From NCBI RefSeq assembly GCF_000760695.4, contig NZ_JHEG04000001.1:2886452-2950451 (forward strand): a DNA stretch of 64,000 bases. Direction: 5' to 3'. The number at the start of each line of letters is the position of its first letter. Positions within the stretch are counted from its first letter, which is position 1. The notes beneath the pieces are model-generated. The model was not told the origin of the DNA, made no database searches, and saw only the letters and a list, made by a program, of their open reading frames with translations. Below are positions 28,626 through 44,854 of this stretch, in pieces. A program made the translations under genes and the position numbers. The stretch is from Tolypothrix bouteillei VB521301. GTDB lineage: Bacteria; Cyanobacteriota; Cyanobacteriia; Cyanobacteriales; Nostocaceae.

Positions 28626-28665
28626 GTTAAGGAATGGCGATCGACGGCGATCGCCATTCCTTAAC
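28626..28665. terminator. Bidirectional hairpin with 18-bp perfect stem
   Basis: GTTAAGGAATGGCGATCG (28626-28643), loop ACGG, then its exact complement (28648-28665). The right arm includes the stop codon of the CARF-HEPN gene and a HIP1 octamer (28647-28654). It sits between two convergent genes. T-runs are weak (TTTCTTTAAAG on the left). Confidence 0.75.
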
Positions 28666-30205
28666 TGGGGCTTGATTTCAACAAATCTAAGCCCCATTTA
28701 TAGAGAGATGGAACTAACAAATTTTCTATTTTGACACCAGGGCTAACTTGTTTGAGAACAGAGAACATCAACGATTTTATTACCTCTGATTCTTCTGAAG
28801 AGGAGGCTGTAAATAAACCACATTCTGCCCAAATGGTCCGAATTTGGGCAAAAGTTAAGGATTCGGCATAATGAACAACTTTATTGCGTTTTTTGCGAAT
28901 GCGGTTGAGTAACTTGTACCACTTATTATCTTCGGACAAATTGTGAGATCTGCGCCAACCTTCAATTAATTCTAGCAGTGATGGTGGATAGTTTTGACCT
29001 GGTATTTGAGTAATATAGCCTCTACTCATCCAGTTTTGTTCATCACATTGTACGCATAACAACCTCTCTACAATCTGAGTAAATTGCATGAAGGCTGTAG
29101 AGTAATTCCTTTTCAACAATGGAATTTCGATGAGAAAAGAAGATTCCCAAGTTTTAATCAATTGACTGTTATTAAATTGATGCAATTGTTCTTGCCAAGC
29201 TTGAATTTGTTCGTTACTAGTAACTTTTGCAACATCATTGGAACGTACCCAATTCTCGATCGCTATTAAAAATTTTTTTGTTTCCCAGTTGGTATATAAT
29301 GCTAGAATACCTGCTAATTTATACAAACTTTTATATCGACTTTGGTGGGGTTTTAACCACAGTTGTGCTTCGGAAAAGTCCCCTCTTTCCCAAGCAGATA
29401 TCACCCGCATCCGTTCTAAAGACCAGAAATGCTCTCCCATAGGAATCAGTTTAAAACTTTGAGAGTGCATTGCTGTTCTGGAACCATTAGGTAAAGTGTC
29501 AAAAAATAACTCCGGCTCTTGAGGGCTAGCATTGTACACTTCACACTGTCGGGCTAAAGCGGCTGCACAAATTTCCACTCCCGATGCAATAGCAGGCGCA
29601 CAACCTTTGTTTTGTACCCACAGTACTAACTCTTTATCTTCTACAGGTGAGAAAAAATCCAATGCTTCTTGTAAGATTAAGACTTCTAATTCTTGACGAA
29701 TTGCATCGCTATCATTGGCGCTAATTTTTGGGGCGTGGACATCGATTCTCACATGAGGACAAATACTTTTGATTTTCCCAGCCATTAATGCTGCTAGCCA
29801 AACAGTATCCAATCGTCGGTAAAACCAAGAAACTGTTTCTGGTTGATCGGTTCCCCACAAAATGATATGTTTTAACCCCCGTTCAACTCCTGTGGTAATA
29901 ATTGTATGGTCTAAAAGAAGTTCTACTTGGCTAAAGTCTCCGCCAAGCCATTCCGTACAGTGTTCGTAATAGCGTTTGCCTAAATCTTTTGCACTCCAAG
30001 GATAAGTTTTATCTTGTTCTTCATGATTACCGCGTTCCAGCCCCAGTTCTTGATAAAGTTCATTAACATGATGCGGATAGCTTATATTACCATCAGCACC
30101 AAAAGAACGAATCACTCCATCTTTACAGCGCCATCCTATTTGACGAGTCCCCACAGTGATGATTAAAGTGTCTGCGCGATCGCAGTCTGTTGAGATAGTA
30201 TTCAT
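28661..30205 (-). CDS. CARF-HEPN protein, candidate Csm6/Csx1-type cOA-activated RNase
   Basis: A 514-residue protein at the end of the cmr gene run. The N-terminus, RADTLIITVGTRQIGWRC, starts like a CARF Rossmann-type sensor (strand, GT turn, helix). DHTIITTGVERGLKHIILWG and LVLWVQNKGCAPAIASGVEI look like further sensor strands. The C-terminal third is helical and contains RKKRNKVVHYAES, a HEPN R-x4-H motif (Arg440 to His445). Established knowledge: in type III systems Cas10 makes cyclic oligoadenylates that activate CARF-HEPN RNases (Csm6, Csx1). From position and motif I infer that this is such an effector. The sensor sequence is far from the Csm6 and Csx1 examples I know, so the exact family is open. 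Its stop lies in a strong terminator hairpin. Confidence 0.75.
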   Translation of the reverse strand: MNTISTDCDRADTLIITVGTRQIGWRCKDGVIRSFGADGNISYPHHVNELYQELGLERGNHEEQDKTYPWSAKDLGKRYYEHCTEWLGGDFSQVELLLDHTIITTGVERGLKHIILWGTDQPETVSWFYRRLDTVWLAALMAGKIKSICPHVRIDVHAPKISANDSDAIRQELEVLILQEALDFFSPVEDKELVLWVQNKGCAPAIASGVEICAAALARQCEVYNASPQEPELFFDTLPNGSRTAMHSQSFKLIPMGEHFWSLERMRVISAWERGDFSEAQLWLKPHQSRYKSLYKLAGILALYTNWETKKFLIAIENWVRSNDVAKVTSNEQIQAWQEQLHQFNNSQLIKTWESSFLIEIPLLKRNYSTAFMQFTQIVERLLCVQCDEQNWMSRGYITQIPGQNYPPSLLELIEGWRRSHNLSEDNKWYKLLNRIRKKRNKVVHYAESLTFAQIRTIWAECGLFTASSSEESEVIKSLMFSVLKQVSPGVKIENLLVPSLYKWGLDLLKSSPS

Positions 30206-30242: not shown

Positions 30243-30405
30243 AAAGATGTTTGTAGAGTCGTACAACATCTAAAACACCATGCGATTGAAATTGCGGCTA
30301 CACAAGCGAAGTCTTACAACATCTCAATTTGAAACACCATGCGATTGAAATCGCGGCTACACAAGCGAAGTCCGCCTACGCGGACTTTGTTTGTAGAGCA
30401 TCATC
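30243..30405. repeat. Second copy of the 59-bp tandem repeat element
   Basis: Same element as 23410-23640, with one shortened unit (from 30261) and one full unit, again opening with AAAGATGTTTGTAGAG and closing with AGTCCGCCTACGCGGACT plus TTTGTTTGTAGAGC. It lies in the same orientation as the first copy. It separates the CARF-HEPN gene from the rest of the cmr genes, and its final hairpin may reduce read-through on either strand. Confidence 0.85.
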
Positions 30406-32135
30406 TAAGGAACTGGCTCTTGAGCAGCAACAGCACTCACGCCAAATAAATGCACAGCACCAGTCAAATTGTTGAGGTCTCGCAAAAAGCGAGAGCGGAC
30501 ACGATCGCCATTTGGTGTTTGTCCTCCCATGAACAAACAGACGATTTCTTGACAGTCTGTCTCTTCCTGTTTATTGGGTATTTTGACGCGTTTAATACTG
30601 ACCCAGGAACAATGAGCATTTCCTCCACCCGCAGCATTCCCACCAAGATCGGGGTTGCGCTTGTAGTTTCGCGGAGCATTTTGCTGATAAATGAGGTACA
30701 TACCATCTCCACGGGTAGCTTCTGCGTCACGTGATTGCTCCCAACACTTTTCCTGAGAGTTTAACGGATCTGTGTCGGGACCGGGAACAACATAAACAGC
30801 ACACGTTGCTGGAGAGAAAACTTCTGCAGTTATGTTATTGTTATTCAACAAAACTCTATCATTCCAAAGTTGTTGAACAGCTATACGCCAGTCAGAGTAT
30901 GCTTTTTGCCAAGTACTGGTGTCTAGAGGCAAGCCATAAGATTTATTTTCCCAGTTGTTAGTTGTTTTATTTTTAACCTTATGGGTTAAGGTTAAATAGG
31001 TTCCTCTTGCGGCACTTTTACCATTATTCATATGGAAGATGTGCAATGGTCTGCGCCAACCACGACCTACCCCGCCTACCATAACGGCAAATCGAATGAT
31101 GGGTAGAATAACTTTATTTAAGATTTCGCTAGGAGCGCTGATTTGCAATCTTCCTTTCCATTGATAGAAGCTAGGTTGATTGGAGGAGCGATCGCACCAA
31201 GTTTGTCTCGGAAACATTTGCACTCGCACGCAACCTTTGTGGCTTTCTGGTTGTAAAGTACCAAACAGTTCACCAACGGTTTTTTGTGCATCGTCTTCAG
31301 ACATCACACCTAAAAAAAATCGCAATACCCAACCCCGCAACCAACCCCGCCAATGAGAAGGGCGTAACTCCATGCTTGTCATACTCGGACCCGCATTACC
31401 CTGACTGTAAAGGTTAAATTCAAACTGCTTTACTGCATAACCGGGGTCAGTTTCCAGTTTAAGGGATCTTGAGAATTCAACAGTTCCATACCCAGAAGCA
31501 GTCCGACTCCCAACACCATATACGCCAAGTGCTTGCTGGACCCATTCCCAGACTTCTTGCACATCGTCATCTGTGACTTGTCCGGGAATTCCTCGGATAG
31601 CTACCGTTACTGTAATTTCATCTTCACCATTACCCAAAGTATAGAGGGACAAAGGCGTTCCTTGTCCTTCGTGATAGATTTGAAACGTCTCTTGAGGATT
31701 GACAATATCTAAGGTTAATTTAGTTGGTTGAGAGGGCCAAGCATCTAGAAACTCTATCTTACCAGGGCTGATGAGATCGTTGTTCTGATAGCCTAAAAGT
31801 TCGTTCATTCTTGGTAGAATTTCCGGACGTTGTTTTGCCCACGCTCTGACTAATCCTCGAATAGAAGATCCCGGTATGTAACCGTTGAGGGGCAAACATT
31901 TGAGTTGTTCCCAGTTTTGCCCAACGTTACGTTTATCTTCGGGACGACCATTATTGATGTGCCATGCACCGCAGGGTTCACCAGCAGAAACCATTGTTTC
32001 TAAGTCTGGATGAGGAAAAGAGCCAACCTTAGTACGCCACAGCAGAGTGAAGGTATCTTTTTTGAACAAGCCAGACTGCGATCGCAGTTGATGTTGTTTT
32101 TCTAATAACTCAATCAATTTCAGTCCAGAATACAT
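30405..32135 (-). CDS. Cmr6-Cmr1 fusion, type III-B RAMP protein
   Basis: The start is set at the ATG at 32135, one base overlapping the cmr5 stop (TAATG), with AGGAGG just upstream; an upstream in-frame Met at 32201 lies within cmr5. The 576-residue product has two RAMP units. Residues about 1-235 resemble Cmr6: GYIPGSSIRGLVRAWAKQ and a Gly-rich GVYGVGSRTASGYGTVEF. Residues about 236-576 resemble Cmr1: MELRPSHWRGWLRGWVLRFF, ELFGTL, and MVGGVGRGWRRPLHIFHM. Both proteins are backbone or cap subunits of the Cmr effector complex: Cmr6 at the 3' side of the crRNA, with Cmr1 beside it. A covalent link would fix their 1:1 ratio. No separate cmr1 or cmr6 is present. The C-terminal tail has an Asn/Gly-rich stretch. 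Confidence 0.8.
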   Translation of the reverse strand: MYSGLKLIELLEKQHQLRSQSGLFKKDTFTLLWRTKVGSFPHPDLETMVSAGEPCGAWHINNGRPEDKRNVGQNWEQLKCLPLNGYIPGSSIRGLVRAWAKQRPEILPRMNELLGYQNNDLISPGKIEFLDAWPSQPTKLTLDIVNPQETFQIYHEGQGTPLSLYTLGNGEDEITVTVAIRGIPGQVTDDDVQEVWEWVQQALGVYGVGSRTASGYGTVEFSRSLKLETDPGYAVKQFEFNLYSQGNAGPSMTSMELRPSHWRGWLRGWVLRFFLGVMSEDDAQKTVGELFGTLQPESHKGCVRVQMFPRQTWCDRSSNQPSFYQWKGRLQISAPSEILNKVILPIIRFAVMVGGVGRGWRRPLHIFHMNNGKSAARGTYLTLTHKVKNKTTNNWENKSYGLPLDTSTWQKAYSDWRIAVQQLWNDRVLLNNNNITAEVFSPATCAVYVVPGPDTDPLNSQEKCWEQSRDAEATRGDGMYLIYQQNAPRNYKRNPDLGGNAAGGGNAHCSWVSIKRVKIPNKQEETDCQEIVCLFMGGQTPNGDRVRSRFLRDLNNLTGAVHLFGVSAVAAQEPVP

Positions 32136-32542
32136 TAATCCTCCTGATAGGCTCTTGCCCAAAAATTCCAATGATTGGCTAAAATCAGAGATGTACGCCA
32201 CATAACTAAATATCGTTGCGGTTCCTCGTTAGCCATTTGTACAACTCTCTCCCTTAACTGTTCTCGTTGTGGAAGTTCGGCTTCATCTATCATCTGACCG
32301 AGTAAAGACTCCCACACAGGTACAGTGCGATCGCGGACTTCACCCCTCTGGGCATTTGACTGGTTTACATACCCAACTGCTGATAGCAATCCGAATACTC
32401 TCAAATGCTGAGACAAACGTAAGACAGCTGTAAGGTCATTTTTATCTATTTTTGGTTTTCGGGCAGTACGCAAGTAAGTTTGAATGTGTTTGTGAGCACT
32501 CAAGCTGATTTGTTCTGGCAATATTTTCAAAGAAGAAGACAT
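32135..32542 (-). CDS. cmr5: Cmr5, small subunit of the type III-B complex
   Basis: A 135-residue all-helical protein typical of Cmr5, which lines the inner filament of the Cmr complex and contacts target RNA. Consistent features are its length, position between cmr4 and the cmr6-cmr1 fusion, and the C-terminal segment RYLVMWRTSLILANHWNFWA. It overlaps the next gene by one base (TAATG), showing tight translational coupling, and follows cmr4 by 26 bp. Confidence 0.85.
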   Translation of the reverse strand: MSSSLKILPEQISLSAHKHIQTYLRTARKPKIDKNDLTAVLRLSQHLRVFGLLSAVGYVNQSNAQRGEVRDRTVPVWESLLGQMIDEAELPQREQLRERVVQMANEEPQRYLVMWRTSLILANHWNFWARAYQED

Positions 32543-32568: not shown

Positions 32569-33456
32569 TTATACTTTTACGGCAATGTTTAACTGGGAAG
32601 GGACTGCGGTGTTACCAGTCCACCCCTGAACCCATCCACGTCCCACATTTGCTTGACCTCCAATCTGAAGTAATCCTTGCAAAACACCTATCAGCAAATT
32701 ATGTTGATCTGATGTAACAGTTTTATCTTTCAGCAAACTGTAACCCCAAGGGAAATAAAGAATAGTATCTCTGGGAATGCAAACATCTGTCCAAAAAACC
32801 TCGGCTGAACCCGCTTGATTAACTCCATCTGTTTCGTCTTGTATTTTATTGCGAATTTGTGTCCAGAGAGAGTGTTCCATTAAAACTTGAAAATCAGCAT
32901 CAGGTAAGACAATACGGTTTTGTTCCCAAGTAGGTTGAACAGCATTTCTCAAAGAATCTGACCACGTTCCTGCTAAAGATAGTACTTCTTTTTGCTTGTC
33001 AGACAAACGACCTACCTGAATCCGAGCATCAGCTACTACGTAATTTCCCGGTATAGTTCCAACAGGCTCGTTAGAAAATAATACAGTTTCTTGGCGTGCA
33101 ACAAGTGCATGATCTCGAATCAGAGAGTGACAGCTGACCCAACAAAAGACATCTCGACCTCCATTCATTGACATGGTTCGCATCGGAACCCACAATAAGC
33201 GTGCATCACCAAACCATACCTGATGTACACCCATTTGACCCTGTTGGTCTAATTCTTTACCAAATAAAACGTTTGCAGCACTCCCATTTAAGAGTGTAAC
33301 TTCTTCCCTAAGAGTTCCCCTTAAAGAAGAACCAGGAATATAGGGAAAATTTGTGTGTACTTCTCTGGCAATTTCTAAAATATTACCTAAATCTCCTTCT
33401 CCACCACAGTGAATTGGAGCAAGACTGTACATATACCCAATCCGAAAATCTGTCAT
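32569..33456 (-). CDS. cmr4: Cmr4, backbone RAMP nuclease of the type III-B complex
   Basis: A 295-residue RAMP protein (ATG at 33456 chosen; a GTG four codons upstream is possible). It starts MTDFRIGYMYSLAPIHCGGE, a form of the Cmr4 N-terminus (usually SLTPLHVGSG). It then has NFPYIPGSSLRGTLREEV (the RAMP signature), and near the end LLQIGGQANVGRGWVQG, the Gly-rich loop. In characterised complexes Cmr4 forms the helical backbone and cuts target RNA every six bases with an Asp in its early loop (near residue 26-31 in homologues; here Asp in GGEGDLGN is a candidate). It lies 26 bp after cmr3 and 26 bp before cmr5. Confidence 0.88.
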   Translation of the reverse strand: MTDFRIGYMYSLAPIHCGGEGDLGNILEIAREVHTNFPYIPGSSLRGTLREEVTLLNGSAANVLFGKELDQQGQMGVHQVWFGDARLLWVPMRTMSMNGGRDVFCWVSCHSLIRDHALVARQETVLFSNEPVGTIPGNYVVADARIQVGRLSDKQKEVLSLAGTWSDSLRNAVQPTWEQNRIVLPDADFQVLMEHSLWTQIRNKIQDETDGVNQAGSAEVFWTDVCIPRDTILYFPWGYSLLKDKTVTSDQHNLLIGVLQGLLQIGGQANVGRGWVQGWTGNTAVPSQLNIAVKV

Positions 33457-33482
33457 TTTTGTTCTCACTTACTTTATGTGTG

Positions 33483-34670
<1,188 letters not shown>

Positions 34671-34689: not shown

Positions 34690-35067
34690 CTAAATTTTGT
34701 GTTTTTTGGTTTTGACAATAATTGCTGTAATTATTGCAATAATTTCCTCGTTCTCTTGCATAAGAAGGTTTAGGCGATCGCTAGTAACAATATTCGATTT
34801 AGCTAGTAACCGAAGCCAATATAAACTTTCTCTAGCTTCTTTTTGGGCAATGGTTAACTTGTGAATAAAATCAGGTTTGCTTTCACCGGATTGAGCTTCT
34901 TGTATATTGGCTCCAATGGAAGTTGCCGATCTTAAGTATTGTTTTCCTATTATATTACCTGCTTCATCTTTTTGTCCTTGGATATACTGAAATAATTTGA
35001 TGGCTCTTAAAGCATACTCAAGAGTTCGCTCTCGAATATCCCATGTTTTTATATTCCCATCATTCAT
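34690..35067 (-). CDS. Four-helix-bundle protein (23S rRNA IVP / Avd-like)
   Basis: A 125-residue protein of the S23/IVP family: IRERTLEYALRAIKLFQYIQ, IIGKQYLRSATSIGANIQEA with the invariant SIGANIxEA, SGESKPDFIHKLTIAQKEAR, ESLYWLRLL. Members form pentameric helical bundles that bind nucleic acid. One relative (Avd) is an accessory protein of diversity-generating retroelements; others occur inside 23S rRNA intervening sequences. Here it interrupts the cmr gene run between cas10 and cmr3, same strand, and is flanked by inverted 7-bp arrays. Whether it takes part in CRISPR function or is a passenger cannot be told; no diversity-generating RT or template repeat is in the window. Confidence 0.88.
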   Translation of the reverse strand: MNDGNIKTWDIRERTLEYALRAIKLFQYIQGQKDEAGNIIGKQYLRSATSIGANIQEAQSGESKPDFIHKLTIAQKEARESLYWLRLLAKSNIVTSDRLNLLMQENEEIIAIITAIIVKTKKHKI

Positions 35068-35095: not shown

Positions 35096-35347
35096 TATTA
35101 TTCCCAATTCATAATTCATAATTCATAATTCATAATTTTTTCCTGTTATCACGCTATCCTTTATTATTTTCTAAGACTTACGCAATCTCAACGCCATTTG
35201 GGTATTTTATATGTTGTCGATCCCCCCAACCCCCCTTACAAAGGGGGACTATGGGTAAGTCCTATTTCCAATTCATAATTTTTCCCTGTCATGAATCCAT
35301 CCTTTATTATTCCCAATTCATAATTCATAATTCATAATTCATAATTC
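35096..35347. repeat. Two further AATTCAT arrays between cas10 and the four-helix-bundle gene
   Basis: Arrays at 35096-35142 and 35308-35347 are both preceded by CCATCCTTTATTATTCCC. The right-hand array runs into the cas10 gene: the last codons GAA TTA and the stop TGA of cas10 are made by the repeat. Between the arrays is an about 90-bp stretch with CCCCCAACCCCCCTTACAAA, another repeat seen in cyanobacterial intergenic DNA. Confidence 0.8.
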
Positions 35348-38300
35348 TATAATTCTTTGTCGGACAGTAAAAGCTGCAAGCTTTAACCAAAGCTCTACCT
35401 CTGTATCCCCCTCTTTGCGTCTCTGTGGTTCAATAAAGCAAACTTCCAAAAACTCAAACAAAGCTTTTTGAAACTTCTCTTTCAAATCCCCATCCCCTTG
35501 TAAAAGTTCCCGACGATCGCAAAAGGCGTGTGTCCAAGGTGCAACAGCTTCTTTTACGGGTGCGGGATGTTGGCTCCACAAATTAGCAGCTTGTTCAAAA
35601 ATGGCAGCATCTATATCAACTAGATTCAGTAATTCTTGCCATTTATGAAATACTAAAAACTTAGCAGTTGCTTTGAGAATATTTCCATTACCGTACAAAA
35701 CCCGTACTTGGACGGCATCTTTTGCTTTACCATCAGGAGATATATGGTCTTTTGCTTCCTTTTCTGCTTCCCACATATTCTCTAACGTAATAGCAAGGGG
35801 TACGGAATGATGCGCGATCGCAATCCCAAAGCTAATTGTTGCTCGTTCCCCCATTGTAAATAAAGGTCGTTTGGCAATAGAATTGGCGGAATGAGTTGCT
35901 GGTAATTGCCAGTAATCACCCCGGCTTTGAAACTCACCTCTTGGATCTTCTTTTCCTTGGAAACATTGGCGGATATCCCAAAGCCATCTATCCCATTCCC
36001 AAAGATTGGTGTAGGCTAAGACATCATCACCACCGCCATATATCAGGCGTCCCGCATAGCGTTGTTCGGTCAGGTAAGGAACAAGTTCATTGGAGAAGTC
36101 CAACAAAGCACGGCTGAGAGCGTTGTGAGTGGAAGGTCCGATGCGTTTCTGAGTTGTGAGAAACTCTTTAAAGCGCTGGGCTATTGATTGGTTTCTCTCC
36201 TTGTCACCCTCTTCCATTTTCTGAATTTGATTCTTTAAATCTTGGGGGATGTAATCAAGGTAATCTTTGAGTGGTATTCCTTTAAGCCATTGACTCATTC
36301 CGTCACCGTCCCCAGCTGCTAGCACGTACCAACTTGCAGGGTTGTTGTTGGGATAGAACCTATCTATGACTTTTTGAATGCTACAACGGTAATCTTGTTT
36401 GAGTTCTTCAATGTTTGGTGCTTCGCCATCCTCTACCAACCAGCCTGCATTCAGCAGACGGGGATGATTTTTCTTAGGTAAGGTGCGGCGATTATCTATC
36501 CAAGGAATTCCCCATTTGCTTCTCATACCTTCTATGACTTCTTGAGTCCACTCGAACTCATGCATGATGGTTTGACAAGCTTGGTTGAAGTGTTTCCAAT
36601 GGTCTAGTCTTTCTGTCTCTTCCATGACTTTGAGATAGCCTGCAACTCCGGCTGTCAAATCTGGGTAAGAGGCTTCTATTTGTTCGGTATCTTCTAAAGT
36701 TAATAATTCTGGCAGAATTTTCTCCAAACAGCGCTTGACGGTTTCGGTAGCATTGAGTTGTTCTCTACCATCAAACAAGCCTGCTTGTCTTTGCCAGCAT
36801 TTTTTGGTGTCTCCTTCACTCACCCAGTCTTGTTGGGGATGAACAACGGGACCAATACCGGATACGGTGGAACGAGGACCAAAGGCTGTTGGAAGTTGCC
36901 AGTTTCGGGCATTTTTGACTGATGTTAAAGTGTATCTGGTTTGATCGAAAATGCTAGCCCACCAAGAACCAACATTGATGCTAAATTTTCTGTGTTGAGT
37001 GTCAAAACGGAGTTTGGCAGCTTCTAGAAGAAATTCTCGTTCTTTTGGTTTAAAGAGTGTTTGTTCGTCTTGTAAGTTATAGGCTTGGTTTTGGGTATCT
37101 ATCCATTGTTGGAATAAGGTTTCTTTTTCTTCTTCAAAACAAATGGTATTTTTTAGCTGTAAGCCTTTTTCGTCTTTACCAATAGGCATTGCAGCCCAGT
37201 AAAACTGCCATTGGGATTGCAGCCAGCCTTCCCATGTTTTGCTATCGGCTTGTAAGTTTGGCATCCAATGACGGTTGTCTTGTAATTCTTCAAAAACTAA
37301 CTTGCTAATTTCTTGCCATGCTTGCTTGACTGTCTGTTCTGCCGTTTGCATGGCTGCTTTAACTTTGTCTTTTGGCAGAATGAGGACTATAACGTTGGGA
37401 AATCCTGCTGTTAGGAGCTTGCGATCGCATGGTTTATCGATCCAGTCTTTAAAATCTGGGTATTTTTGTAACAACCAGTGATCTATGAGTGGTTGTTGGA
37501 ACAGACTGGGATATAACAAGGTATCGGGACCGTATTGTAAAGCCAGTTGCCAGGAGACTTTGGCACAAAGGTAGTGCAGTATCCAAGAACCCGCCCAGAA
37601 ATCGCGCATTTTGCGACTGGCTTTTATCAGTTCTTGGACTGGCGTGAAGGTAAAGCTTGCTAAGTAGGGATGGGATAGGGTATTTTGTGAAGACCAACGT
37701 TTGAGTTGTTCTGTTGTCAGATCGTATCCGGCTAATGCACCTGAAAGGGCGGCTGTTATACTGGCGTGACTCCAAATGGAACTGTCTGGAAAGCGGGTTT
37801 CCGCAGGCATTAGGATGAGAGATTTATCCTGAAATTCTTGGCAAACAGCTTCTGGCAAACAACGCCACAGCCACCAGTGGAGCTGTTTGTAATTTTCCTT
37901 TTTCTTTGCTTCGGTGGGAATTTTATCCAACAAGTTTTGTTCTTGTTTTTGGAGATATTCGCGTCGGTTTTTGAGGACTTCCGAGTGCTGTGGAATTTTG
38001 AAGTCTAGTTTGGCTCCCGAAAGTAGGTGGGCAATTTCCAAGCCCCTGTCATTGTAGCTGACACTTTGAATGATACTGCCGATGGCACCGCGATCGCTAG
38101 CTGAAGAAATCCAGTCTGCTTGGTGAATGTGTTTCATGACTGTACCTCCTGAAGATTCAGGGTTCCAGCCGTTGTCAACCCAATTTTGCATCACTGGCAA
38201 TTGTTGCCAGAAGCTATTTTCACCTCGTCCCGATCCATTGTTATGTAGTGCTTTTAGCACGGGGTCATGGAGTAATCCCCAGATTTTAGCTTGCCAGTAT

Positions 38301-38374
38301 GCTTCTGACACAGGCGAATTCCTTATTGTGGTATCCAGTATGGATTGTATGAATTGATATCCCTGAATGTCCAA
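35339..38374 (-). CDS. cmr2: Cas10/Cmr2, signalling subunit of the type III-B complex
   Basis: A 1011-residue Cas10. The N-terminal HD nuclease pair is in KIWGLLHDPVLKAL (His36-Asp37). FTPVQELIKASRKMRDFWAG (about residue 245) is the first palm-like signature. The catalytic palm motif RLIYGGGDDVLAY (about residue 778) has an intact GGDD, needed to make cyclic oligoadenylates. SFGIAIAHHSVPLAITLENM follows. The frame has no ATG between its upstream stop and the conserved N-terminus; TTG at 38374 is the best start, which may mean low expression. The C-terminal stop is formed by a 7-bp repeat array. It heads the cmr gene run; the gap after it holds repeats and the four-helix-bundle gene. Confidence 0.92.
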   Translation of the reverse strand: MDIQGYQFIQSILDTTIRNSPVSEAYWQAKIWGLLHDPVLKALHNNGSGRGENSFWQQLPVMQNWVDNGWNPESSGGTVMKHIHQADWISSASDRGAIGSIIQSVSYNDRGLEIAHLLSGAKLDFKIPQHSEVLKNRREYLQKQEQNLLDKIPTEAKKKENYKQLHWWLWRCLPEAVCQEFQDKSLILMPAETRFPDSSIWSHASITAALSGALAGYDLTTEQLKRWSSQNTLSHPYLASFTFTPVQELIKASRKMRDFWAGSWILHYLCAKVSWQLALQYGPDTLLYPSLFQQPLIDHWLLQKYPDFKDWIDKPCDRKLLTAGFPNVIVLILPKDKVKAAMQTAEQTVKQAWQEISKLVFEELQDNRHWMPNLQADSKTWEGWLQSQWQFYWAAMPIGKDEKGLQLKNTICFEEEKETLFQQWIDTQNQAYNLQDEQTLFKPKEREFLLEAAKLRFDTQHRKFSINVGSWWASIFDQTRYTLTSVKNARNWQLPTAFGPRSTVSGIGPVVHPQQDWVSEGDTKKCWQRQAGLFDGREQLNATETVKRCLEKILPELLTLEDTEQIEASYPDLTAGVAGYLKVMEETERLDHWKHFNQACQTIMHEFEWTQEVIEGMRSKWGIPWIDNRRTLPKKNHPRLLNAGWLVEDGEAPNIEELKQDYRCSIQKVIDRFYPNNNPASWYVLAAGDGDGMSQWLKGIPLKDYLDYIPQDLKNQIQKMEEGDKERNQSIAQRFKEFLTTQKRIGPSTHNALSRALLDFSNELVPYLTEQRYAGRLIYGGGDDVLAYTNLWEWDRWLWDIRQCFQGKEDPRGEFQSRGDYWQLPATHSANSIAKRPLFTMGERATISFGIAIAHHSVPLAITLENMWEAEKEAKDHISPDGKAKDAVQVRVLYGNGNILKATAKFLVFHKWQELLNLVDIDAAIFEQAANLWSQHPAPVKEAVAPWTHAFCDRRELLQGDGDLKEKFQKALFEFLEVCFIEPQRRKEGDTEVELWLKLAAFTVRQRIIEL

Positions 38375-38551: not shown

Positions 38552-39150
38552 TTAATTTGGAAATCCCTTAGCAGCAAAGATATCTTCTGCTGTCAAGTTT
38601 AACTCTGGAAATGTGGGTGATACGATGCGTTCGCGTCCCCGAAACTGCATCATTTGATATTCCTCTTCAACCAAAGAATAAATAAAGATAGTGGGTTGTT
38701 TGGGATTGCCAGTAAATTTTTTACTACCTAAAGCCAAATAATCAACAATCCAATATTCAGGAATTTTCATACCTTCGTAGACTCCATACTTTGTATAGTA
38801 GTCATCCCGCCAATTTGTACTAACGACTTCAATAACTAATGGAATGGAATCACCTTGAGTTACAGTAGACTCTTTTTCCCATAGCGGTTCATTCACTAAA
38901 TTATTACGGTTTAGTACGAGCACATCCGGTGAATAACCAGATTCATTTTCTAAAGGTTTCACTAATGCTACTTTAGGTATAAAGAAAGGGAGTTTTAATC
39001 TTATATACTCAAAGGTAAGTAAAGAGCTATAAATCCTATAATTTCTTCATATTTTCCTAGTGGTTGTGGCATTTCAATAATGACTCCATCATGTAGTTCG
39101 TAACGATTTCCACCTGCGGGTTTCCATTTCACGAATTCTTCAAATGTCAT
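38552..39150 (-). pseudogene. Uma2-family (DUF820) nuclease-like gene with one frameshift
   Basis: From the ATG at 39150 the frame reads MTFEEFVKWKPAGGNRYELH, DGVIIEMPQPLGKYEEIIGF and breaks near 39015. One base out, it continues LTFEYIRLKLPFFIPKVALV, KPLENESGYSPDVLVLNRNN, IPLVIEVVSTNWRDDYYTKY, IPEYWIVDYLALG, and ends at 38552. This is a Uma2 protein, a PD-(D/E)XK-type family very common in cyanobacteria. Apart from the single-base deletion it is full length (about 199 codons). It lies between cas10 and the array with its start near the terminal repeat. The frameshift could be a sequencing error. Confidence 0.8.
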
Positions 39151-39219
39151 GTGATTATTTCCAATCAATTAGTTTCCCTAGCAAGTAGGGACAGTTTTAA
39201 GTGCTAAGGAACGGAATAA

Positions 39220-41325
39220 CCCACATTCCGCACTTCAAAATGTAGTATAAAGAGTCACATAATTCTTTTCCAATATATGTAAATAAAAGTACACAAATTT
39301 TTTCAGTAATTGGGCATTGAGTTGGCATGAACAAATAAACCAAAAGCAAAGTAGAAAGCGGCTAAAAAGCTGATGAATAATTGATTTCCAGCTTTTGATA
39401 AAACTAAATATACATTGCTTAAGTTCAAGTGGGACAATCAGAAAAACTCAAAAATATTTGAGAGGTAAAAAATGTTCCCAATCTCAGATGCAAAAATTAA
39501 GAATATCGACCACTTAGGAATAGTAGCTGGGTTGATTGACGAAATAGGAATAGTTGAAACAATAAATTCTAAATTAGGAATAGATCCCCGAGAGAAGATT
39601 TCATCAGGAATATTGGTGAAAGCGATTTTAATCAATGGATTAGGATTTGTATCAAGACCTTTATATTTATTTAACCAGTTTTTTGAAGATAAAGGAATCG
39701 AAATATTATTGGGTTCAGATGTAAAAAAAGATTATATAAATGATGATAAACTGGGAAGAGTTATGGATAAATTATATAGATATGGATTGAATAATCTGTT
39801 TATAGAAATTGGATTATCAGTGATTAAAAAATTTCAGATAGATACAAAATATTCACATCTAGATGCGACATCATTTCATTTGCATGGAGAATATAAAAGT
39901 GGAGAAAAGCAGGAAAAAAAAGAAGAAGTAAGTAGAGAAAGACCAATAATTGTAACCAAAGGATATTCTCGTGACCATAGGCCAGATTTGAAACAATGTA
40001 TTTTAGATTTAATTACAAGTAGTGATGGAGATATACCGTTATTAATGAGAGCGGGAGATGGGAATGAAGCTGATAAAGCTGTATTTGGAAAAATTTTAGT
40101 AGAGTTTAAAAAACAAATAGATTTTGAAAGTATTATGGTTTGCGATAGTGCATTATATAGTCAAGAAAATCTCCAATTAATCGAACATCTAAAATGGATA
40201 AGTAGAGTACCGATGACAATTAAAAAAGCACATGAATTAGTGAAGTCTGTAGAGATAGAAGAGATAAGTGCATTATATAGAGATAAAAGAGCAGCTCTAA
40301 ATTTAGATGGATATAAGTGGAAAGAAGAAATAGTAAATTATGGTGGAATTAAACAAATATGGCTAATAGTAGAAAGTCAAAAAAGAAAAAAAAGTGATTT
40401 AGAAAAGCTAGAGAAAAAGCTAAAAAAAGAAAAAGAGAAAGTTGAAAAACTGCTGAAATCTTTAAAAAAAGAAGATTTTGAAACGCCGGAGCAAGCCAGA
40501 TACAAACAAAAAAACATCAATAAAAACTTGAAACTATTTGAAATTAAAAATGTTCAAATTTTTGAAAGTCAATCAAAAGAGAATCAGACTATTTATAAAA
40601 TATCAGGAGTCATTCAGGAAAAAATAGAAGAGATAGAAATCCAAAGAAAAGAAGCAGGAAGATTTATTTTAGCGACTAATTTAGTAGACGAGACTAAGTT
40701 AGAGCCAGAAGAAATTCTCAGAAATTATAAAAATCAACAATCATGTGAACGAGGATTTAGATTTCTGAAAGATCCATTATTTTTTGCTGATAGTTTTTTT
40801 GTAGAAAATCCTGAAAGAATAGAGACGATGTTATTTTTAATGTCTCTGTGTTTATTAGTTTATAATCTTGGTCAAGGAACTAGAAACAGCTTAAAAAAGT
40901 CAAAATAGGAATCAAAAATCAATTAGGTAAATTAACTTTCAGTCCTACATTAAGGTGGGTATTTCAATGCTTTCAAGGTATTCATATTTTAATTTTAAAC
41001 GGTGTTAGTCAAATAGTTAATTTAACAGAAGAGCGTCATTTTATTTTGAATAATCTGCCATCATCTTGTCAAAATATTATTTACTTTCTTAATTTAAACA
41101 GTATATGGAGAGTGAATAAAAATTTATCAATCCCGAGGAAATCATAATTATTTCTCCAATTTCTAGTGCTTAAATAACCTGTTCTATTAGTTAAATATTT
41201 AATGTTAGATAAGTTTTATTTATGCCATCATTTGGTTCAATATTCTTTTCTTAATTATCCTAATTTTTTGACTTTTACGTTGATTGTAACCTCTTGGTAC
41301 TTCAAATTGAAATGCGGAATGTGGG
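39220..41325 (+). mobile_element. IS1634-family insertion sequence inside a CRISPR spacer
   Basis: A 2106-bp element. The ends are inverted repeats CCCACATTCCGCA(C/T)TTCAA (39220 onward, and complementary from 41325 backward). It is flanked by the 6-bp duplication GAATAA at 39214-39219 and 41326-41331. It carries a single transposase gene on the plus strand. Family assignment comes from the transposase; 5-6 bp duplications fit IS1634. Both ends and the duplication are intact, so the insertion is probably fairly recent. Confidence 0.9.
39472..41147 (+). CDS. IS1634-family transposase, needs a -1 frameshift
   Basis: The first frame (39472-40908, 478 codons) gives MFPISDAKIKNIDHLGIVAG, YSHLDATSFHLHGEY (first catalytic Asp region), YSRDHRPDLKQCILDLITSS, AGDGNEADKAVFG, MVCDSALYSQENL (second Asp region) and YKNQQSCERGFRFLKDPLFF (Glu region): a DDE transposase with the N-terminal DUF4277-type domain. 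It then ends early after RNSLKKSK. At 40893-40899 the codons read A AAA AAG, a classic slippery heptamer. A -1 slip there continues VKIGIKNQLGKLTFSPTLRW to a stop at 41147, giving a 558-residue protein of normal family length. Either programmed frameshifting or a one-base indel explains this. Confidence 0.85.
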
Positions 41326-41454
41326 GAATAAGGCTTGTAAGTTTCCAATCAATTAGTTTCCCTAGCAAGTAGGGACAGCGTGATACAGCAACAGCAAAGC
41401 TCGAAGCAACAGTGGTCAGTTTCCAATCAATTAGTTTCCCTAGCGAGTAGGGAC

Positions 41455-41638
41455 CCCTCTAGTTTAGACCCTTACCCCGTAAGGAGTCCAGAGGCAGTTT
41501 GCGAGGGGGTCAGAAATTGAGACGGGAAAAGGGAAAAAACTCATCATAAAAATCGCTGAAACGCTTATAGGACAGGGCGGCGAGGGGGTCAACGGAAGAA
41601 TCGGTGTTTCAGACTTTTACCGACCCCCTCGCCGCTAA
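41455..41638 (-). promoter_or_regulatory. CRISPR leader with repeated GACCCCCTCGC motif
   Basis: This 184-bp stretch lies between the cas2 stop and the first repeat. On the minus strand GACCCCCTCGC occurs at 41501-41511 and within 41577-41590. The latter is a 14-bp block, GACCCCCTCGCCGC, that faces its exact complement at 41622-41635 over 31 nt, forming a large hairpin right after cas2. The hairpin may end the cas1-cas2 transcript; the direct motif copies may guide spacer integration. An AT-rich patch (TTTTTATGATGAGTTTTTTCCC) could hold the array promoter. Confidence 0.65.
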
Positions 41639-41917
41639 TTAGACAATTATCGAACCAGGTAGCTCTGTTACGGGAGGACCAACGCCCCAAGTCTCGACTT
41701 GTCCCCAAGTGTGCTGGGACAAAGGATAAAATCGCACGCTGTCTTCTGCAAGTTTTACCTTCTTCTTCAGCCTTTGACAAAGTTCTTTGTACTTACTTGG
41801 GGGTAATTGGCACTCAAAAACTGAGTACTGTACGCGCTTGCCATATCCTTCTAACAAATCTGATACCTTTTTGCGCCGTTTGTCGCAAGGAATATCATAA
41901 GCTACCACGTATAACAT
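41639..41917 (-). CDS. cas2: Cas2
   Basis: A 92-residue Cas2 beginning MLYVVAYDIPCDKRRKKVSD, with the conserved Asp in YDIP, then LLEGYGKRVQYSVFECQLPP and VRFYPLSQ. Cas2 dimers bridge two Cas1 dimers in the spacer integrase. It starts 3 bp after the cas1 stop codon, so the two are co-transcribed, and it is followed by the leader hairpin. Confidence 0.95.
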   Translation of the reverse strand: MLYVVAYDIPCDKRRKKVSDLLEGYGKRVQYSVFECQLPPSKYKELCQRLKKKVKLAEDSVRFYPLSQHTWGQVETWGVGPPVTELPGSIIV

Positions 41918-41920
41918 GAA

Positions 41921-42910
41921 CTAACGAATTAAATAAGGCTGGTACGCATGACTGGGATTGTAAACAAACTGCTTGTAAGCTTTGATTTGTTGAGTTAGCA
42001 AATCCCATTTGGGTTGTTTTTCCTCAAAGTCTGTTTGCACTTCCTCCTCCATACGCTGTAAAAATGCCTTGAGATACTTTCGCCGTCCAGAATCGTTTAA
42101 GTAACAACCCCCATCGCGGTATTCAAAATCTTGTGTATTTACAGTTTTAGTATTAACTAACCACAAAACTAAGGAATCCACAATAGGAGCGCGAAATTCC
42201 TCAATGAGATCCGAAGAAAGAGCAGCATGGCGTTCCGATCCTTGGTGCAGGCAAGCATAATAAGGATCGAGTCCCTGTACTTCTATCATTGCTAGTATGT
42301 GATTCCACAGCACTTGATAACCAAAACTCAACATGGCATTGACGGGGTTTCCTGGTGGACGGCGGCTGCGTCCGGTAAAGACGAATTCTGAATTGGTCAA
42401 ACATTCTCCAAAAGCAGAAAAATATTGTGCCGCACCCGAACCTTCAAACCCCATTAATCGTTCCCAACTATCAGCTTCTGCAGCTTGCGAAACTAAATAA
42501 TCCAGGCTTTGCAATGCTTGTTCCAACACTTGCGACTCAAGCCTCTTTCTCTGTCGTCGTAACAGCACGCGACTGTTTTTTAATTTTGCTTGTACGATCG
42601 CCCTAGCGGTAACGAGCTTTTCCACAGGTGACAGCTGCTGTTGATAGCGACACAATTGCCGATACCCCCGCTCAATAGGTAAGATTCGTCCGTAACAAAA
42701 TCCCATGCGAGAAAGATAAACAATAGGAATATCTCGCCAAAGACAAGCACGAATTGCTTGCGTACTGACTTGTGACTTACCAAAAATCAGAACTTGTTCC
42801 AAGAGTGGTAACTGCACTTCAGCACAAATAGTCTCTCCCTGTTTGACGATCAACATTTCTTGCTGTAAAGAAACATAGCAATTCTGCTGGGAAACATATA
42901 GTGTTCTCAT
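41921..42910 (-). CDS. cas1: Cas1
   Basis: A 329-residue Cas1 integrase without fused reverse transcriptase or Cas4. The N-terminal beta-domain is MRTLYVSQQNCYVSLQQEML, with the usual VQLPLLEQVLIFGKSQVSTQ. The catalytic Glu is in LMGFEGSGAAQYFSAFGE, and the other metal ligands are in YYACLHQGSERHAALSSDLI and EEFRAPIVDSLVL (His, Glu/Asp). GNPVNAMLSFGYQVLWNHIL is the characteristic helix between them. It is first in the cas1-cas2 pair. Confidence 0.96.
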   Translation of the reverse strand: MRTLYVSQQNCYVSLQQEMLIVKQGETICAEVQLPLLEQVLIFGKSQVSTQAIRACLWRDIPIVYLSRMGFCYGRILPIERGYRQLCRYQQQLSPVEKLVTARAIVQAKLKNSRVLLRRQRKRLESQVLEQALQSLDYLVSQAAEADSWERLMGFEGSGAAQYFSAFGECLTNSEFVFTGRSRRPPGNPVNAMLSFGYQVLWNHILAMIEVQGLDPYYACLHQGSERHAALSSDLIEEFRAPIVDSLVLWLVNTKTVNTQDFEYRDGGCYLNDSGRRKYLKAFLQRMEEEVQTDFEEKQPKWDLLTQQIKAYKQFVYNPSHAYQPYLIR

Positions 42911-43120: not shown

Positions 43121-43405
43121 TTAACCTCTCCACCACCTACTTAAAGATGATTGACGCCGACGACTGGTATTTTCTCGTCTTGAATCGGAAGAAAGCACTT
43201 CAACACGCCGTTGTGGTTCCAACCAAGCAATAACTCTGTCAGCGACGCTAGATACTGCGAAAGTCGTTAAAGTAAGCAATAGTGTATTAATAATTACCGC
43301 AGCTAATCCCAAGGGGGCAATCAGCAAGATAATAAGAGTAATACCGCCCGTAAAAACAGACACTAAAGTGTTGCGTATGGTAGAAACACGCGGAGAAACG
43401 TACAT
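43121..43405 (-). CDS. Small membrane protein, possibly Csx18-like CRISPR-associated protein
   Basis: A 94-residue protein from the Met at 43405 (a Met 22 codons upstream is also possible). MYVSPRVSTIRNTLVSVFTG is followed by a hydrophobic hairpin (GITLIILLIAPLGLAAVIIN, TLLLTLTTFAVSSVADRVIA), two adjacent membrane helices, then a basic, Arg/Ser-rich tail. The APLGLAAVIINT pattern is one I associate with the small membrane protein named Csx18 in cyanobacterial type III loci. The gene's place directly upstream of cas1, same strand, fits. A membrane protein in such a locus may anchor or disrupt the membrane after signalling, but that is inference. Confidence 0.6.
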   Translation of the reverse strand: MYVSPRVSTIRNTLVSVFTGGITLIILLIAPLGLAAVIINTLLLTLTTFAVSSVADRVIAWLEPQRRVEVLSSDSRRENTSRRRQSSLSRWWRG

Positions 43406-43675
43406 AAAGATTGGCGATCGCTTGTCGTCTTTTGAAATTCTAGGTGTATAATATGCAGCGCTGCATGACATTAAGATATTCGATAAATCTTAAAAAAGCT
43501 CGAAAAAGAGAATAATTCACGGTTTCTTCACAAAGCACAAAAACCTTGCCAATCCTGGAATAGATTGATACAACATTGGGATAAGTCATATTTTCTATTT
43601 ATCAACCTAGAGAAAAGTGGAACAAACCCCTAACAGGGGTCATTAGTTGCTGGTTACCAATCACCGTTAATATAA

Positions 43676-44854
43676 ATGCGTAAAAAAGATACCTCTCACC
43701 CCTACAGCGATCGCTTAAGTTTTGAGCGACTGATGTTGCTGATTGCAACTTTACTGAAACATCCGGGAATTGGCTGTCCGGATGTCATGGAATTACCCAA
43801 AGACAAACATCACAATGCTCTAACACAAGTGCAACTAGGGCTGCGAAAACTAGCAGATGTTTTTGGAATCCAATTACCAGCCAATTATCCTTCTACACCA
43901 ACATTGCGAAAAGACTTAGAAACCCTTCGAGAATACGGCATTCTAGATCGAAGGATGTATCGGTGGGGATACTATTTAGGTACGGGCGTCATGTCCCAAG
44001 AGGAACTGAAAGTTGCAGTGAATGCCATAGCGTCCCAAGCCAAATATCAAGGAGATTCCCAAGTCAGACGCATTCACGAGACTTTAAGCAAAAGGTTGCG
44101 AGGGTTAGATTTGCAACTCAACGGAGAATTTTTTTATCCCATCAGACAATATCTCAATCGTGCCATAGTCCATACCGATCCTGAAGAAATGGCAGAGAAA
44201 GGAAACAATCAAGACACCCTGTTCCACAAATTACCCATTTTGGAACAAGCCATTATCCAAGGATTGAATATTGAAATATCCCGAAGTAGCGACCTTTACG
44301 GTACCGGTCGAGTCGGACCAATACAAGTTGTTCCATTACAATTAATTTACCACGATATTGCTTGGTATTTACTGTACGAATACTGCCATGACGGACATTT
44401 AGCAATTGGGAGAATGAACCGATTCAAGAACTACTGTAAAGTTTTCAATGGATCGAGTAGGGGTACAGAAGCACAAAGATGCAGCCTAGCAAAAGCATAT
44501 GAACTGCTAGAAAATGGTTGGGGACTCAATTTAGGAGAACCAAACGACCAACAGTTAGAATTGCAAGGTAAGCTAGAGTTTGTCACTGTCAAAGTACGTT
44601 TTTTTCATCCACTAGCTGCTTTCATCTTAGAAGGAGAACTCCGCCATCCCAATCAAGAAATTATCTCCGGTCCCGTAGATGAAATGACAGGTAAAATTAA
44701 TTTTGTAGATTATACTATAGCGCTACCACCACGCTCTTTAAATGAGTTTTTGTTTTGGGTTTATCGTTATATGGATAAAGCTCAAGTCATTTCTCCTTCT
44801 TCTCTTGTGAAGAAACACCAGGAAGCCGCCAGCAATCTAGTAGCAAGATTTTAA
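43676..44854 (+). CDS. WYL-domain transcriptional regulator of the CRISPR locus
   Basis: A 392-residue protein. The N-terminal winged helix is spread over residues about 10-100 (RLMLLIATLLKHPGIGCPDV, TPTLRKDLETLREYGILDRR). A WYL domain follows (about 190-270: LEQAIIQGLNIEISRSSDLY, VVPLQLIYHDIAWYLLYEYC, AIGRMNRFK), where IAWYLLYEY corresponds to the namesake WYL core. A C-terminal extension follows. WYL regulators often bind nucleotide or nucleic-acid ligands, and cyanobacterial examples repress CRISPR or phage-defence genes. It is divergent from the cas1-side genes, with about 200 bp of shared upstream DNA, so control of that promoter is the natural expectation. Confidence 0.85.
   Translation: MRKKDTSHPYSDRLSFERLMLLIATLLKHPGIGCPDVMELPKDKHHNALTQVQLGLRKLADVFGIQLPANYPSTPTLRKDLETLREYGILDRRMYRWGYYLGTGVMSQEELKVAVNAIASQAKYQGDSQVRRIHETLSKRLRGLDLQLNGEFFYPIRQYLNRAIVHTDPEEMAEKGNNQDTLFHKLPILEQAIIQGLNIEISRSSDLYGTGRVGPIQVVPLQLIYHDIAWYLLYEYCHDGHLAIGRMNRFKNYCKVFNGSSRGTEAQRCSLAKAYELLENGWGLNLGEPNDQQLELQGKLEFVTVKVRFFHPLAAFILEGELRHPNQEIISGPVDEMTGKINFVDYTIALPPRSLNEFLFWVYRYMDKAQVISPSSLVKKHQEAASNLVARF

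Follow-up and report, generated by a model that had tools for sequence, protein, structure and literature searches.

A CRISPR array beside the type III-B cas genes of Tolypothrix bouteillei VB521301 has two of its three repeats parted by an insertion element, which raises the question of how the element came to lie there and what became of the spacer between these repeats. Analysis of the 64,000-nt stretch that holds the locus (the window) and of related loci leaves us confident that the array, which belongs to a type III-B (Cmr) locus, received an IS1634-family element in its leader-distal spacer by transposition, with a 6-bp duplication. In particular, the original prediction that an IS1634-type element had split one spacer, and that this spacer could be rebuilt, is confirmed to the base with respect to coordinates, duplication and the 36-nt join (Table 1).

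Table 1. Coordinates of the array, the inserted element and the cas locus in the window
Feature	Positions	Strand	Remarks
CARF-HEPN (Csx1/Csm6-like) gene	28661..30205	-	beyond the Cmr genes
cmr6	30405..32201	-	
cmr5	32135..32542	-	
cmr4	32569..33468	-	
cmr3	33483..34586	-	
cas10/cmr2 (III-B)	35339..38374	-	
Terminal (leader-distal) CRISPR repeat	39157..39192	-	36 nt, 1 mismatch, at the final base in crRNA sense
Split spacer, leader-distal part (27 nt)	39193..39219	-	includes one 6-bp duplication copy (39214-39219)
IS1634-family insertion element	39220..41325	+	2106 bp, in the leader-distal spacer
Left terminal inverted repeat	39220..39254	.	35 nt
Transposase ORF	39472..40908	+	478 aa; DUF4277 and DDE_Tnp_1; C-terminus shorter than in same-genus copies
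Right terminal inverted repeat	41291..41325	.	35 nt
Second GAATAA copy of the 6-bp target duplication	41326..41331	.	
Split spacer, leader-side part (9 nt)	41332..41340	-	
Middle CRISPR repeat	41341..41376	-	36 nt, reference for mismatch counts
Intact leader-proximal spacer	41377..41418	-	42 nt
Leader-proximal CRISPR repeat	41419..41454	-	36 nt, 1 mismatch, in the predicted hairpin loop
CRISPR leader	41455..41638	-	right end of the array, between array and cas2
cas2	41639..41917	-	
cas1	41921..42910	-	
csx18-like gene	43121..43471	-	
WYL-type regulator gene	43676..44854	+	recognised by PADLOC; no Pfam or NCBIfam match at E 0.001

The split array and the type III-B locus

The locus contains three near-identical 36-nt repeats with spacers of 36 nt (rebuilt by joining 39193-39219 to 41332-41340) and 42 nt, accompanied by a leader and adjacent cas1-cas2 genes. 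No further repeat copies with up to 10 substitutions were found on either strand of the 64-kb window. In 10 related loci 36 nt is the commonest spacer length (55/273), and 42 nt accounts for 14/273. The positions of repeats and element also bear out the claim that the leader-side unit is parted from the terminal repeat.

Sequence comparison places the leader at the right end of the array, with transcription predicted to proceed from there, since the array adjoins cas2 in 10 of the 11 named loci found by Cas1 (the eleventh, L098, stops at cas1), the flank is common to a second array, and the far repeat is altered; the crRNA-sense repeat typically ends in GAAAC. In this orientation the 42-nt spacer is leader-proximal and flanked by two repeats. 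All four folded repeats (the three here and that of the second array) have the same predicted 6-bp hairpin, in whose loop both the leader-proximal repeat and the second-array repeat are altered; the hairpin is unexceptional compared with shuffled sequences (z from -1.1 to -1.7) and was left out of the orientation call. Promoter-like sites are no more frequent than chance predicts (11 against 11.8), and the terminator search, with an expectation of 1.0, gave none. A perfect 14-bp inverted repeat lies in the leader (41577-41635), and the same arms are present in the second-array leader.

The second array (G000:C1:6696305-6697741; L009 6306-7742) has 20 repeats, each with 2 mismatches, separated by 19 spacers 35 to 42 nt long, without any insert; beyond these close repeats there is a decayed terminal repeat with one more spacer beside it. 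Its flank is 87% identical to 41455-41657 (176/203), and the leader match takes in the terminal 19 bases of cas2, among them the stop codon, which suggests that the second array probably arose by duplication from the cas2-adjacent one. No cas genes were seen by eye among the ORFs of the 15-kb stretch at the second array. When the 19 spacers between close repeats were compared with the window, a single 11-nt match fell inside the element, and matches elsewhere were of 11 to 15 nt.

The further claim that the array was already very short before the insertion could not be upheld, as later loss or gain of leader-side units would give the same picture. Repeat counts (at most 9 mismatches) range from 3 to 54 in the 10 array-holding named relatives, the arrays of L094 and L095 ending at contig ends; since L096 has just 3 repeats without any insert, shortness of an array calls for no particular explanation. 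If the leader-proximal repeat is the template copied at each acquisition, its difference from the middle repeat would mean that the change postdates the last acquisition.

The assignment to type III-B is based on the presence of cas10/cmr2 together with cmr3, cmr4, cmr5 and cmr6. PADLOC models recognise all five Cmr proteins, at E values of about 3e-30 or lower; with NCBIfam models, Cmr2 and Cmr4 score above the cut-offs, Cmr3 and Cmr6 fail to reach them, and Cmr5 is without a match. In the type III-Bv system of Synechocystis, crRNA maturation is reportedly performed by host RNase E. Two more genes lie in this region: one of the 23S rRNA-intervening-sequence protein family (PF05635), between cmr3 and cmr2 (34690-35067), and a Uma2-type nuclease gene with a frame break, between the array and cmr2 (38552-39150), whose likely start codon is 6 nt from the terminal repeat. 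No Uma2 match was found by tblastn in the 11 named relatives.

The nearest cas1 relatives are records of Komarekiella, Rhizonema, Scytonema, Chlorogloeopsis and Nostoc. The csx18-like gene is present in all 11 named relatives and the WYL gene in 7 of them; Cmr2 lies beyond the array in five (L092, L096, L097, L099, L100), the Cmr genes of L101 are on the opposite side of cas1, L093 and L102 have no Cmr gene within the stretch covered, and L094, L095 and L098 end too early. As the largest gap between repeats in the 10 array-holding relatives does not exceed 58 nt, the insertion is not shared by these loci. A strain with an empty site was not found, the other same-genus genome giving a weak 65-nt match to the array-leader-cas2-cas1 query.

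The inserted element and its transposase

Members of the IS1634 family have terminal inverted repeats and duplicate about 5-6 bp of their target. Both features are observed here, as the 35-nt arms are 83% complementary and GAATAA stands at 39214-39219 and 41326-41331, an identity of 6 bp that two preset positions would show by chance once in 4096. The transposase ORF, moreover, scores 374 bits against NCBIfam NF033559 (transpos_IS1634, cut-off 100). Since the G at 39213 is identical to the last G of the element, a 7-bp duplication is formally possible; we favour the 6-bp reading, in which the element would have the symmetric ends common to most related copies.

Related copies were screened at 30 distinct places (L090 and L104 being one place, counted once), 16 of which, without a recognisable end, were set aside. 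Among the 14 copies with both ends, an exact 6-bp duplication was found in 7, a match of 5 out of 6 bases in 3, and of 2 to 4 out of 6 in 4. Each of the exact duplications has at most one G or C, like GAATAA; that the other 7/14 copies show none counts against the transposition reading. The same-genus genome G001 has at least two full-length copies of the element at 93% identity.

A preference of the element for CRISPR arrays is not supported: array-like repeats were signalled in 3 of the 29 related-copy loci (L067, L089 and L090 among L063-L091, with about 1.5 kb of flank or less), L067 and L089 being judged from the repeat listing alone, and the repeats of L067 following mostly in 21-nt steps. 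At the place shared by L090 and L104, a decayed IS1634 relative (L104 4492-6154; G173:C167) lies about 100 bp past the terminal repeat of an unrelated array.

The transposase is not full-length, having 478 aa as compared with 540 aa from the first ATG in two same-genus copies; full length is needed for an active element and irrelevant to family membership. Two nearby one-base losses were identified by alignment with 28 related copies (L084 and L088 gave no alignment over the site), the first base being present in 25/28 and the second in 26/28; at the first site L071 is like the window, and the divergence of L011 and L089 prevents a judgement. A programmed frameshift is not supported, as these 25 and 26 relatives keep the absent bases. 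Given the shorter ORF and the two losses, the element is probably not autonomous, the yardstick being same-genus ORFs that are putatively complete from the first ATG. The frame breaks could also be sequencing errors, as the adjacent Uma2 gene is frame-broken as well.

Fate of the interrupted spacer and rival explanations

Transposition into the leader-distal spacer, presumably the oldest one, with its 6-bp duplication, left the leader, the first repeat, the 42-nt spacer and the second repeat intact, so that the locus should keep one crRNA and its ability to acquire spacers. The interrupted spacer no longer lies between two repeats on the leader transcript, and its memory is presumably lost. 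The prediction that transcripts from the leader would be broken is therefore only partly retained: the older spacer is cut off, but the 42-nt spacer keeps both its repeats, and its crRNA is still expected. Immunity as a whole is probably little affected, given the second array with the same leader, a near-identical repeat, 19 spacers and one more beside the decayed repeat.

The search of both spacers against phages and plasmids, proposed in the original prediction, yielded no convincing match for either. The rebuilt spacer has partial matches in 12 phage and 4 plasmid records, and the 42-nt spacer in 72 phage and 4 plasmid records, with coverage below 80% in every case; words of 19 to 25 nt taken from both spacers had no exact match among viral contigs in any of the five scans. 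With up to 3 mismatches, 217 family genomes (its own and 216 others) contain no match to the rebuilt spacer and one to the 42-nt spacer, namely itself. Cyanobacterial phages are poorly sampled, so the absence of matches in collections says little; lacking a protospacer match, the rebuilt sequence is a putative working spacer.

These searches bear on the proposal that the insertion was selected, the element switching off a spacer harmful to the cell, either self-targeting or directed against a useful plasmid. There is a precedent in Sulfolobus, where excerpts of a review describe an IS in a spacer matching a plasmid that was maintained under selection (PMC4390879). Still, the rebuilt spacer at up to 3 mismatches matches neither its own genome nor the other family genomes, and its plasmid matches are the four partial ones, so we consider selection improbable, although a more diverged or unsampled target may exist. 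Insertion elements are a frequent cause of assembly errors, and the small frame breaks in the transposase and the neighbouring Uma2 gene are possible sequencing errors, which would fit a misassembly or a chimeric join at the element. The assembly (9.95 Mb), however, consists of 2 contigs and is rated 99.99% complete, and the own-genome search (40 of 58 candidates scored) revealed one full copy of the element, the others being 68% identical over part of it or 83% over 42 nt, which leaves no multi-copy element to misjoin. Together with the exact 6-bp duplication and the usual length of the rebuilt spacer, this makes a wrong join, envisaged in the original prediction, very improbable.

A quite different outcome of the same insertion would be a chimeric crRNA, as type III crRNAs may need a repeat solely on the 5' side. 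A leader transcript, reading on, would cross the middle repeat into the right end of the element, antisense to the transposase, and the crRNA would carry element sequence behind a 15-nt remnant of the old spacer, made up of 9 nt and the duplication. If so, the Cmr complex would gain a guide against read-through transposase RNA, and the insertion would vaccinate the host against itself; we regard this as very improbable.

Comparison with known systems

Transposition into the leader-distal spacer, the reading we prefer, sets the locus apart from its relatives L092 (Komarekiella), L096 (Rhizonema), L097 (Chlorogloeopsis), L099 and L100 (both Nostoc), which share the order csx18-like gene, cas1, cas2, array, cmr2, but have uninterrupted arrays, with 3 repeats in L096 and 6 to 54 in the other four. 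That a second array shares the leader suggests why the loss of one unit at the cas locus may be cheap. Array-calling programs may miss or split such an interrupted array.

Excerpts from the literature contain several similar cases. For IS in cas genes, a survey counts 28 cases (PMC10359306), IS insertion in spacers is called very rare in Sulfolobus (PMC4390879), and PMC3276549 and PMC5797395, which turned up in connection with IS1634 and CRISPR, mention in the available sections no array with an IS1634 insertion. In the passages available on Haloquadratum walsbyi HBSQ001, the MITE HqIRS37 lies within one spacer of a short residual array, and the ancestral spacer was likewise rebuilt by removal of the element (PMC3119063); that case differs from ours in the host being an archaeon, in the element being a MITE, and in having no cas genes left, while the window keeps them. 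As far as the review excerpts tell, ISC1359 of Sulfolobus solfataricus also inactivated one spacer as an insertion sequence, although it was seen under selection for the targeted plasmid (PMC4390879), whereas the spacer in the window has no target match. The CRISPR2 array of E. coli ATCC 8739, according to the portion of the source available, is a bacterial array disrupted by an IS as well, but it is large, with 32 repeats, and its authors suggest that the IS may help to transcribe distal spacers (PMC2886076). The event described here is thus a new instance of a published kind (an IS or MITE in a spacer, even with the spacer rebuilt), real and ordinary, and provides a clean natural case in which one memory of a type III-B CRISPR array was split by a transposon and its original spacer can still be recovered.
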